Below, in pieces: positions 53,499 to 58,029 of a stretch of DNA of 64,000 nt. Every line of letters begins with the position of its first letter. Within the stretch, counting starts at the first letter, position 1. The DNA comes from Natrinema mahii (lineage in GTDB: Archaea > Halobacteriota > Halobacteria > Halobacteriales > Natrialbaceae): the NCBI GenBank assembly GCA_000690595.2, contig JHUT02000001.1, forward strand, positions 806,001-870,000, written 5' to 3'. The position numbers and the translations under genes were made by a program. The notes below the pieces were generated by a model. The model had not been told where the DNA came from, ran no database searches, and saw nothing but the letters and a program-made list of their open reading frames with translations.

Positions 53499-54120
53499 CG
53501 ATCCACCCCCGGATCGAACCGTCGCGCGGCCCGCGAGCCCACCCCGGCCCGCGTCGGACTGCGACGGTGTCGGTGGCGCGTTCCGGCGTCGATCGCCGTC
53601 GGCACCCACCAACCACTGTCGTCACCTGGTCCCCTCGGATTGCTTGTCGGTCCTCCATTGTCCACCCGCCCCGCAGCCCCCGGACGGTCCCACTGGCTCG
53701 AGTCCGCGCCGGCCTCGAGCAATCGCGGTCGAGCCCCGCCCGACCGCCGTCGTTCGAGTCCATCCTGACGGCTGCGAGTGTATCCAGCCGATGGAAGCCC
53801 CATATAAGTACCAGATAGTGAGAGGAATCCGGCCGAGCGATACGGTGCGAGCGTTTTCAGCCGTAATAATCAGGGTCCACTGGAGCGGCTACAGCACGGG
53901 CTTGAAACGATATCGCCGTGCGATCGACTCGGAACGTGAGAGATCAACGTCTCTCACACGAGCGGGCAACCGGAGTTCGTTGTAGCGGGGCGGTGACGCC
54001 TGCACCCTCGAGCGAACCTGGATCGGCGACCCGTCGGCGAGCGGACGCTATCTGGTTCCTCAGGCCAAATTCCCGACCACTAACAGTAGATATAAGCCAG
54101 TTCGTGATAACAATCCGAAC
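53499..54120. other. Intergenic region between pilin and zinc-finger gene
   Basis: This gap holds a reverse TATA-like box (CTTATATGGG, 53803-53812). It also has hairpins at 53894-53921 (GCACGG/CCGTGC) and 53936-53957 (GTGAGAGA/TCTCTCAC), enclosed by GCTACA/TGTAGC (53888 and 53981). One copy of a 17-bp near-repeat (53973-53989, again at 54234-54250) lies here. A forward TATA-like AGATATAAG (54088-54096) precedes the next RNA candidate. No protein frame looks coding. Confidence 0.5.
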
Positions 54121-54227
54121 GGAAGCCAGTCTCCAACAGCGGACGCGACGGGGGCACGCGTCGAAATGCCCCGGGTGCAGGAACACCCGAGACGTGGCTT
54201 CCAACCCTGCAAGGGGATTTGAAAGCC
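54121..54227 (+). ncRNA. Candidate pseudoknotted structured RNA (riboswitch- or ncRNA-like)
   Basis: A TATA-like box at 54088-54096 predicts a start near 54118. P1 pairs 54121-54133 with 54189-54202 (13 bp, one bulged G). Inside is an H-type pseudoknot: 54142-54147 with 54157-54162, and 54151-54156 with 54167-54172, with loops of 3, 0 and 4 nt. P3 (54173-54177 with 54184-54188) stacks directly between pseudoknot and P1. A downstream stem (54196-54200 with 54223-54227, enclosing 54205-54208 with 54212-54215) is mutually exclusive with the base of P1. The layout resembles a riboswitch; the nearest gene is the zinc-finger protein at 54322. Class unknown. Confidence 0.5.
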
Positions 54228-54233
54228 ATGCTC

Positions 54234-54270
54234 GAGTTCGTTCTAGCGGGATATAAACGTCCCGCACGAC
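54234..54270 (+). promoter_or_regulatory. Possible promoter of the zinc-finger gene
   Basis: GGATATAAACG (about 54249-54259) lies inside a 6-bp inverted repeat (GCGGGA/TCCCGC) and about 70 nt before the ATG at 54322. It would give a leader of about 40 nt independent of the upstream structured RNA. The 17-bp near-direct repeat copy lies at 54234-54250. Confidence 0.4.
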
Positions 54271-54321
54271 AGTGGAATCAACCTCGACGACTGACGCCGA
54301 CTGCCACCCGCGGGGCCAGCC

Positions 54322-54510
54322 ATGGGTGAGGACCGGTCCTCGAGCGGGGATGACCAATCCGACGACGAGTGGTCGGTCCCGGACTGCCCCCGCTGTGGCC
54401 GCCCCGTCTGGATCGTGACCGTCTCCGGCCCCGGCCCGGGCACCGCCTCGCCCTGTGGCTGTCCCGTCGCGCCCGAACTGCTCGCGGACGACCCCGACCG
54501 CGAGCGGTAG
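54322..54510 (+). CDS. Small CPxCG-type zinc-finger protein
   Basis: The 62-residue acidic protein contains DCPRCGRPVWIVTVSGPGPG followed by PCGCPV, two cysteine knuckles that would bind one zinc. Small CPxCG-type zinc-finger proteins are numerous in haloarchaea and several affect motility, biofilm or stress when studied in Haloferax. Partner and target here are unknown. The gene sits between the structured RNA and the pilin locus. Confidence 0.8.
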   Translation: MGEDRSSSGDDQSDDEWSVPDCPRCGRPVWIVTVSGPGPGTASPCGCPVAPELLADDPDRER

Positions 54511-56248: not shown

Positions 56249-56389
56249 TCACGCTGACCAGCGCGTTTTACAGTGTCTGCGGGACGATTGTTGCGTTACT
56301 CTCTCGTTCGTTGCGTCGCGAAAAGTGGGACCGCCGAGGTCATCGATTCGTCCGTTACGCACGCGGGTCTGATCGGTCATCGTAGTCAT
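56249..56389 (-). CDS. Possible 46-residue protein coupled to the recombinase
   Basis: ATG 56389 overlaps the recombinase stop (ATGA) and opens MTTMTDQTRVRNGRIDDLGG, ending in a basic CKTRWSA tail. The overlap suggests translational coupling. In the pleolipovirus SNJ2 small accessory proteins assist the integrase; an analogous role here is speculation, and the frame could be fortuitous. Confidence 0.4.
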   Translation of the reverse strand: MTTMTDQTRVRNGRIDDLGGPTFRDATNERVTQQSSRRHCKTRWSA

Positions 56390-57471
56390 GCTGAATCCTC
56401 CGTAAGGAACTCTCGGCGGGACTGCATCCGCCGAATCGGGTCCGGATGATCGTAATGCTCCCTGATCACCTCTGGGGTGGCGTTCACTCGCTCCGCGACG
56501 ACTTCCGGCGGCCAGCCCTCGTCGCGCATGTGCGTGATCGCTCCCGTTCGAATCGGGTGGGGGGACCGGCTCGAGGGACACCGCGCCTCGAGCCCATGCT
56601 CCAGGGCTTCGCAGTTCGTCGTGTCGCGATCGTGTGGGCATCCGCCCCACCGACAGGGCTGGGTCATAATGTAGATCTCCCGCCGGATGCTCGACTTCGA
56701 GACTCGCGGGCGATCTCCCTTTTTGGTCGTCAGTAACGGCCGCCGGTCGTCCGGATCGACGCGCTCAACGCGGTTCACGTCGATGTACTCCCGAACGCGG
56801 TCCGCGACCTCCTGGTCGATCGCCACCGGACGCTCGCCTTCGCGTTTGTTCTTCAGCGGCGTCGACTCGCGGTGACGGAAGTACACGAACGGCAGTTCGA
56901 CCGCCTCGAGCGCCGCCGAATCGATGTCGTCCTGATGCTGCAACCGCTCGAGGTCCGACTCATCGAAGAAACAATCCCCCAGATCGAGCGAGCGGAGCCC
57001 ACCGAGTCGACACCCAGTGTGCCAGAGTAGTTCGAACATCACCTGTCGTCGCGACGCGCGCTCGTACCGGTGGAGGTTCTCCCGAACCGTCTCGGCGCGC
57101 TCGGCGGATAGCAGCTCGTCGTTGACCCGGTCGGCGAGGTCGACGGACGGAACCTCGACCTTCGCCGGAAGCCCCGACTCGACTGCGTCGATCCGCTCGC
57201 AGAACTGGATGAATTGCTTGAGCGTCCCGATCTGGTTGTTCAGGGTCGACACCTTCAGCCCATCCGCACGACGAGCCGAGTCGAACCGGAACACGTCGCG
57301 GCTCGTCAGGTCGTTCATGTTATCGATCCCTTCCGAGTCGCACCACTCGAGAAACGGCTTCAGTCGGTAGCGGTAGCTCTGTAGTGTCTCGTCGGCCCGC
57401 GTGGACTGCAGCCGGTCGAGCCACATGTCGACTGGCTCGCGCGGTGCGATCGGCTCAAGGTCGTCACTCAT
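56386..57471 (-). CDS. Tyrosine recombinase / integrase
   Basis: The 361-residue protein has an N-terminal SAM-like core-binding domain (about 10-110, TLQSYRYRLKPFLEWCDSEG). The catalytic domain contains HTGCRLGGLRSLDLGD (arginine I), a late HPIRTGAITHMRDEG (H-x-x-R) and REHYDHPD with the candidate tyrosine nucleophile. A CRWGGCPHDRD...CEA cysteine-rich insertion is typical of haloarchaeal viral-type integrases. Its start overlaps the end of the PadR-like gene by 8 bp. It lies between two inverted pilin operons and could integrate a provirus or invert the locus. Confidence 0.9.
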   Translation of the reverse strand: MSDDLEPIAPREPVDMWLDRLQSTRADETLQSYRYRLKPFLEWCDSEGIDNMNDLTSRDVFRFDSARRADGLKVSTLNNQIGTLKQFIQFCERIDAVESGLPAKVEVPSVDLADRVNDELLSAERAETVRENLHRYERASRRQVMFELLWHTGCRLGGLRSLDLGDCFFDESDLERLQHQDDIDSAALEAVELPFVYFRHRESTPLKNKREGERPVAIDQEVADRVREYIDVNRVERVDPDDRRPLLTTKKGDRPRVSKSSIRREIYIMTQPCRWGGCPHDRDTTNCEALEHGLEARCPSSRSPHPIRTGAITHMRDEGWPPEVVAERVNATPEVIREHYDHPDPIRRMQSRREFLTEDSA

Positions 57472-57886
57472 CCTGATCACCCTCGGAGCCGTCGGTCGCG
57501 GCGATCTCGAGTTCGCACGCGTCCGCAAGTCGCTCGAGGCGCTGGCGTAGCAGCCCACGCCCATCGCTGGTGAGGACGTATTCGTTCGTCCGCTTATCGA
57601 TGGCCGACTTCTCCACGAGCCCGCGCTCGACGAGCGTATCGAGGTTCGGGTACAGCCGCCCGTGATTCACGTCGCCGTACTGGGGCTCGAGTCGGCGCTT
57701 GATCGCGAGCCCGTAGCAGGTCTCGTCGTCGCGCTCGAGGTGAGCGATCGCCTCCAGGGCGTCGCGCTGGAATCCAGTGAGATCGCCCCATGTCGTGCCG
57801 CCGTCGGCCACGAGTCGCTGGTCAGAAAGGGTCGATGCGTCTGTCGTGTCGGGGCTTTCAAGGCCCCGCGAATTGTCGTCGTACAT
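57464..57886 (-). CDS. PadR-like winged-helix regulator
   Basis: The 140-residue protein has an N-terminal disordered part and a PadR-type winged helix (LTGFQRDALEAIAHLERDDE; GLAIKRRLEPQYGDVNHGRL, then YPNLDTLVERGLVEK). A short C-terminal helix with DGRGLLRQRLERLADAC follows. It precedes the recombinase gene and overlaps its start, so it is probably co-regulated with recombination. In SNJ2-like proviruses a similar small regulator sits next to the integrase. Confidence 0.8.
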   Translation of the reverse strand: MYDDNSRGLESPDTTDASTLSDQRLVADGGTTWGDLTGFQRDALEAIAHLERDDETCYGLAIKRRLEPQYGDVNHGRLYPNLDTLVERGLVEKSAIDKRTNEYVLTSDGRGLLRQRLERLADACELEIAATDGSEGDQDE

Positions 57887-58029
57887 GGCTTGCGTACCAC
57901 AGTTACGCGAGCCGCGCGGACCCGGTGCCACCAACACCGGCCCGCAATTTTCGTACGGACCCAACGGACAGTCGGGTCCACGTGAAACTCGCGTTAGCCG
58001 ATCACTCGAGAGCCCATCGTAATAAATCT

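Follow-up and report, generated by a model that had tools for sequence, protein, structure and literature searches.

What is the RNA-like element that begins at position 54121 of the window (the whole 64,000-nucleotide stretch of Natrinema mahii DNA analyzed here), and does it act on the genes behind it? The first-pass annotation had described a compact pseudoknotted RNA at this locus whose enclosing stem competes with a second stem downstream, and had likened the arrangement to a riboswitch. We delimit a leader RNA element at 54121 to 54230 on the forward strand, running from the 5' strand of helix P1 through the start codon of the first downstream open reading frame (ORF). It is matched by both of our covariance models: R1, built from 31 copies, and R2, a second, broader model trained mainly on diverged copies (E = 7.7e-21 for R2 in the covariance-model search of the window). 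We put at roughly three in four the probability that this element is a member of a previously undescribed class of cis-acting, translational RNA switches in haloarchaea.

The TATA-like box that had been placed near 54088 is present as GTAGATATAAG at 54086 to 54096 and predicts a transcription start at about 54119 to 54121, that is, at the first base of P1. A TATA, TTAA, or ATAA motif begins 28 to 30 nt 5' of P1 in most of 103 copies from the Natrialbaceae, suggesting that the transcript begins at P1 or close to it. Many copies outside the Natrialbaceae (e.g., L256, L261, and L277) carry an inverted repeat, such as ACCATTACA...TGTAGGAGATGGT, between the TATA motif and P1, possibly the binding site of a regulator.

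The leader folds around a long closing stem on the forward strand. P1 joins GGAAGCCA (54121 to 54128) to TGGCTTCC (54195 to 54202), with compensatory changes among copies, and P2 joins GTCTC (54129 to 54133) to GAGAC (54189 to 54193). The two stack into a 13-bp helix with a one-base bulge, GGAAGCCAGTCTC (54121 to 54133) with GAGACGTGGCTTCC (54189 to 54202), which is the enclosing stem already recognized in the first-pass annotation. Inside it lie the P3 hairpin (GGGGCA/TGCCCC, 54151 to 54172), whose arms at 54151 to 54156 and 54167 to 54172 enclose a loop with a conserved GAAA in its 3' part, and the P4 hairpin (GGGTG/CACCC, 54173 to 54188; arms 54173 to 54177 and 54184 to 54188), previously numbered P3. 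P3, P4, and P2 abut without linkers and form a three-way junction. The 3' strand of P1 is common to P1 and to a rival, anti-P1 hairpin, the rest of which occupies 54203 to 54227 and ends in the anti-P1 segment GAAAGCC (54221 to 54227). That this strand could pair again downstream had been seen in the single sequence, and the rival stem turns out to be conserved in homologues; absent from the earlier description were the ATG at 54228 and the short ORF that the rival stem abuts.

Is this fold a product of chance in GC-rich DNA, as had been considered? The leader has a folding z score of -2.8, and 0 of 200 dinucleotide shuffles were as stable. Covariation in homologues, named beforehand as the check, is extensive. 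In alignment A4 (51 distinct rows of close and distant copies), compensatory change was seen in 20 of 24 base pairs, with 175 cells against 42.6 +/- 6.1 in shuffles; in A6 (65 copies, mostly from other families), both sides change in 23 of 24 base pairs, with 301 compensatory cells against 77.5 +/- 8.8 in shuffles and at most 50 in a control with partners slid by 1 to 3 columns; these pair counts are not probabilities, because a model of this structure was used to fit the alignments, and the copies are related by descent. The margin over the shuffles is very large despite the model-fitted alignments and the kinship of the copies. Pair counts from a further alignment, A3, were set aside as being of low information, because its copies had been fetched by a fixed sequence pattern. 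Taken together, the z score and the compensatory changes rule out chance folding, and the secondary structure of the domain that would correspond to the sensor of a riboswitch is conserved with covariation.

The element is widespread among haloarchaea. This Natrinema genome has seven, and a DNA search found that each of the six further copies comes with a promoter, the RNA, the rival hairpin, a short ORF, and a zinc-finger ORF. Of 125 genomes sampled from the family, R1 matches 83, the richest of them with 33 copies, and it also finds one or a few diverged copies in other haloarchaeal families; R2 finds the element in 159 of 292 haloarchaeal genomes, spread over 62 of 77 genera (E <= 1e-4), and in these large searches per-genome copy numbers are lower bounds and E-values are rough. 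R1 is specific, since all six of its matches over 197 genomes drawn across the phylum fall within the window's own family. Hosts include Natrinema, Natrialba, Halovivax, Halostagnicola, Halopiger, and Natronorubrum, and, outside the family, a plasmid of Haloarcula halobia (R2 E = 1.4e-14). Two weak DNA matches, L008 and L031, were judged to be chance and rejected as copies. No Rfam 15 family reached its curated gathering score on the element, the sole subthreshold match being a spurious mir-135 on the opposite strand, and the literature searched does not describe this RNA. That such an RNA class exists is very likely, and it was apparently undescribed until now.

Dispersed copies might also be expected of a DNA repeat or of the end of a mobile element, conserved as DNA and not as RNA. 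The multicopy distribution would suit this explanation, as would the fact that some copies are plasmid borne and one lies on a viral contig. However, it leaves the compensatory changes, the constant promoter spacing, and the constant position against the start codon without a reason, and the copies within one genome are diverged and stand beside unrelated genes, not as recent identical insertions would. We regard an origin by chance or by conservation as DNA as highly improbable. Another DNA-level idea, that TTCCAACCCTGCAAGGGGATTTGAAAGCC is a CRISPR repeat, arose from its resemblance to haloarchaeal CRISPR repeats and was rejected: the sequence occurs once in the window, is absent from viral contigs, and varies in step with P1 pairing.

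Phage records gave no match to the element, and in viral contigs the exact RNA-core pattern and one further pattern were unmatched. The anti-stem pattern was found in two viral contigs, of which only L320 (IMGVR_UViG_3300048114_000341) also matches R2. On this predicted viral contig, the RNA lies at 1316 to 1394 on the forward strand (R2 E = 8.4e-9) and precedes the gene for a 59-amino-acid CxxC protein, suggesting that haloviruses or proviruses may use the element too.

How could such a leader act? Only 0 to 1 nt separates the end of the rival hairpin from the start codon of the first ORF behind it. The two strands of this hairpin, the 3' strand of P1 and the segment before the ATG, covary among copies (GGCTTCC/GAAGCC, GGGTTCC/GAACCC, and GGTCTTC/GAAGACC). 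The longest Watson-Crick run between them averages 5.39 in A6, compared to 3.95 +/- 0.15 with shuffled partners (maximum of 4.48 in 2,000) and 2.62 at random ATGs; in A4, the rival stem has 14 double-changed cells against 5.9 +/- 1.9. A simpler origin of the anti-P1 segment, as a direct repeat of the P1 5' strand, was rejected because the segment tracks the complement of the 3' strand and not the 5' strand: among 128 informative positions, where the P1 5' strand base is a G-U partner or a mismatch, the pre-ATG base can form a Watson-Crick pair with the 3' strand at 104 and is identical to the 5' strand at 6. The rival stem is weaker in a large Natrialbaceae subgroup (22 of 146 copies), where GGCTTCC faces GGTTGCC with two U-U mismatches.

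The energies of the two states tell a similar story of competition. The P1 state is lower, with a median gap of 4.5 kcal/mol over 145 mainly Natrialbaceae copies and of 2.8 kcal/mol over 45 diverged copies of A6; shuffling the pre-ATG segment raises the latter gap to 7.0 kcal/mol, indicating that the rival hairpin is tuned to stay within reach. By sequence and by energy, then, the leader has a second stem that excludes its closing stem, as an expression platform does. Of the riboswitch-like architecture first proposed, the closing stem and the exclusive downstream stem are conserved, and the pseudoknot discussed below is not a defining part of it. Conserved helices, two mutually exclusive pairings, and a hairpin set against the start codon are what the comparison of copies establishes at the level of predicted structure.

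In the window element, no T-run follows the rival hairpin and the ATG comes directly, so that termination is unlikely; a translational switch is likely. P1 would stand at the 5' end of the transcript, as the promoter position suggests. With P1 closed, the ribosome would find the bases ahead of the start codon free and could initiate (ON). With P1 open, its 3' strand would become part of the hairpin that abuts the start codon, blocking translation of the first ORF (OFF) and also that of the zinc-finger ORF, which overlaps the first and would be coupled to it. Some factor that haloarchaea have in common, be it an ion, a small molecule, or a host protein, might shift the balance. P1 usually has the greater stability, and the default may therefore be simply ON with little switching.

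That stability would equally suit a passive structure, in which the helix at the 5' terminus keeps the mRNA stable and the second hairpin, a weak local fold, regulates nothing. The P1 state is the more stable one in most copies, and helices near the 5' end of an mRNA can protect it. However, the bases before the ATG show adaptation to the P1 3' strand in different families, and once they are shuffled the rival state loses several kilocalories per mole; a passive structure would have no need of such a fit. We consider a purely passive role unlikely.

What does the proposed switch control? The first-pass annotation had pointed to a zinc-finger gene beside a pilin locus. The zinc-finger ORF is indeed there, but a short ORF comes before it, and the pilin locus is incidental, since the neighbors of the copies in this genome are unrelated to one another. 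The start codon of the short ORF (54228 to 54329, forward strand) directly follows the anti-P1 segment, and the ORF encodes a basic peptide of 33 amino acids, MLEFVLAGYKRPARQWNQPRRLTPTATRGASHG. Its counterparts in Natrialbaceae copies have about 35 codons and the common core (G/R)(Y/H)KRPAR or KRLAR. At its end, the short ORF runs into the start of the second ORF (ATGGGTGA), which encodes a small zinc-finger protein of 62 amino acids (CPRCG...PCGC; 54322 to 54510, forward strand) with no family in Pfam or NCBIfam. The overlap is 4, 8, or 11 nt in 33 of 34 Natrialbaceae copies, which fits translational coupling, so that a gate at the first start codon could act on both ORFs. Both ORFs are unannotated in the plasmid records of Natrinema sp. 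SYSU A 869 (L234) and of Halopiger xanaduensis pHALXA02 (L235), suggesting that these microprotein families are probably widely missed.

Within the short ORF, a hairpin, CGGGA-TATAAACG-TCCCG (54247 to 54264, forward strand), alternates with CGAGA/TCTCG elsewhere; among Natrialbaceae copies, 46 have the CGGGA/TCCCG type and 38 have the CGAGA/TCTCG type. The change of type recodes residues (GYKRP to RHKRL) and keeps the pairing. No convincing covarying hairpin was seen at the coding start of the non-Natrialbaceae group. In the first 12 codons of the A6 loci L256 to L319, unrelated proteins are alike in having Q or E at codon 9 and E or K at codon 10, with A at nucleotide +29 in 94% and G at +37 in 90%, and Natrialbaceae copies also retain A29 and C36-G37. 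This shared N-terminal pattern looks as if the RNA module extends into the coding region.

Outside the Natrialbaceae, the genes behind the leader are different. First genes in other lineages encode SWIM zinc-finger proteins, PadR regulators, a TFIIB-repeat protein, small CxxC proteins, or a Cys-rich protein that opens a conserved plasmid operon. Such unrelated first genes in different lineages favor a common cue over control by any one downstream product. In one genome of another family, G268, which has at least 13 copies (L084, L100, L104 to L108, and L245 among them), most of the copies read stand ahead of a 45-amino-acid CARCGQPVARPRAHATGCPSW protein that overlaps a 179-amino-acid ORF; here the RNA has expanded independently, with another family of zinc fingers behind it.

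In the plasmid operon, the Cys-rich protein (CQVCG...) is followed by a hypothetical protein of about 310 amino acids with a GGARNFGAG motif (loci L085, L086, L093, L095, L102, L103, L256, L262, L299, L308, and L312; plasmid records H18 to H37). The larger protein recalls RAMP or Csf-type proteins, a resemblance that library and fold searches did not support. Nothing was found for the operon proteins in Pfam, NCBIfam, or PADLOC, the PDB search gave one insignificant match (E = 0.1), and the AlphaFold model has a pLDDT of 32; a reading of the operon as type IV CRISPR (Csf1/Csf2) is unsupported.

The window itself holds a second, divergent, and probable copy of the RNA architecture at 57884 to 57993 on the reverse strand (R2 E = 0.0022 over the whole window; E = 1.1e-6 at the orthologous locus L310). 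Its P1 is CGCGAG/CTCGCG, and its rival stem, GGCTCGCGTA/TACGCAAGCC, lies directly 5' of the ATG. Behind this leader, on the same strand, are an ORF for a PadR-like regulator (57464 to 57886; Pfam E = 9.9e-12) and then one for a tyrosine (phage-type) integrase (56386 to 57564). Four matches to this second leader were found in this genome, and as many as 11 in a relative.

If the leader is a switch, what does it sense? The H-type pseudoknot that the first-pass annotation placed within the enclosing stem is a possible pairing in this copy, where GACGCG (54142 to 54147) can pair with CGCGTC (54157 to 54162) in the P3 loop. Among the family, however, a pseudoknot helix of at least 4 bp is possible in only 40 of 91 copies, against 22 +/- 3.4 when shuffled. 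Judged from this pairing potential, the pseudoknot is optional: enriched, not universal, and not a defining feature. The constant feature is an A-rich strand (GAAA or similar) just 5' of the 3' arm of P3, which makes up most of the few unpaired bases conserved across families. These are fewer than a typical metabolite aptamer would show, leaving a protein or a physical trigger as open as a metabolite.

One way to read the junction is as a true riboswitch, in which P1 to P4 serve as an aptamer for a small molecule or an ion, whose direct binding stabilizes either P1 (ON) or the P1-open form (OFF). An aptamer-like junction with a closing stem and a competing stem is what such a reading expects, one RNA ahead of unrelated genes in different families fits a diffusible ligand, and the A-rich strand in the P3 loop is conserved. 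The downstream genes, on the other hand, point to no metabolic pathway, and both the scarcity of conserved unpaired bases and the lack of an Rfam riboswitch match speak against it; we hold a riboswitch to be possible, somewhat short of an even chance. Alternatively, the leader could be bound by a conserved host protein, or by its own basic or zinc-finger product in an autogenous manner, to control translation. The Natrialbaceae operon pairs a basic peptide with a zinc finger, both potentially RNA binding, and a pair composed of a small zinc finger and a small basic protein, brz-brb, is described as acting on bop in Halobacterium salinarum (PMC3184054, PMC2253796). With SWIM, PadR, TFIIB-like, and Cys-rich plasmid proteins as first genes, the autogenous form is unlikely for the class as a whole, and the form with a host protein is possible; binding of the leader by a protein is overall possible, well short of an even chance.

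Whatever its trigger, a translational switch in more than half of the sampled haloarchaeal genomes would, if true, overturn the picture of such leaders as untypical of this group. With dozens of natural variants in species that can be cultured, it would allow tests of how archaeal ribosomes are gated, and it would make a large set of mostly unannotated zinc-finger microprotein genes one possible regulon. Should the riboswitch reading prove true, the element would be a new natural class found throughout the haloarchaea that gates the start codon without a Shine-Dalgarno sequence and controls large zinc-finger microprotein families in Natrialbaceae and genes of mobile elements elsewhere.

How does the element compare with known systems? 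The fluoride riboswitch of Thermococcus kodakarensis was described in 2021 as the only experimentally determined natural archaeal one (PMC8241225), and the authors of a 2016 transcriptome study of Haloferax volcanii judged long 5' leaders to be scarce and translational control by structured leaders to be untypical of haloarchaea (PMC4983044). As in translational riboswitches, the closing stem of the leader shares a strand with a second stem that would occlude the initiation region. Unlike in the known ones, the occluding stem is set directly against the AUG, no Shine-Dalgarno-like motif was seen before it, the RNA has no match in Rfam, and it stands in many copies per genome ahead of small zinc-finger and mobile-element genes. 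The likeness is thus one of predicted architecture only. Autogenous leaders, such as those of ribosomal protein genes, likewise place a structured leader before genes for small, often nucleic acid-binding proteins; here, however, the downstream proteins are unrelated across lineages, and one common downstream protein therefore cannot be the ligand for the whole class. The third parallel, brz-brb of Halobacterium, consists of a co-transcribed small CPxCG zinc finger and a small basic protein that are described as acting together on bop, and the consulted parts of the two reports make no mention of an RNA leader of this kind (PMC2253796, PMC3184054). It resembles the operon studied here in pairing a zinc finger with a basic protein in a haloarchaeon, a parallel by description, and it differs in gene order as described: the zinc finger comes first in brz-brb, whereas here the basic ORF leads, and its end overlaps the start of the zinc-finger gene.
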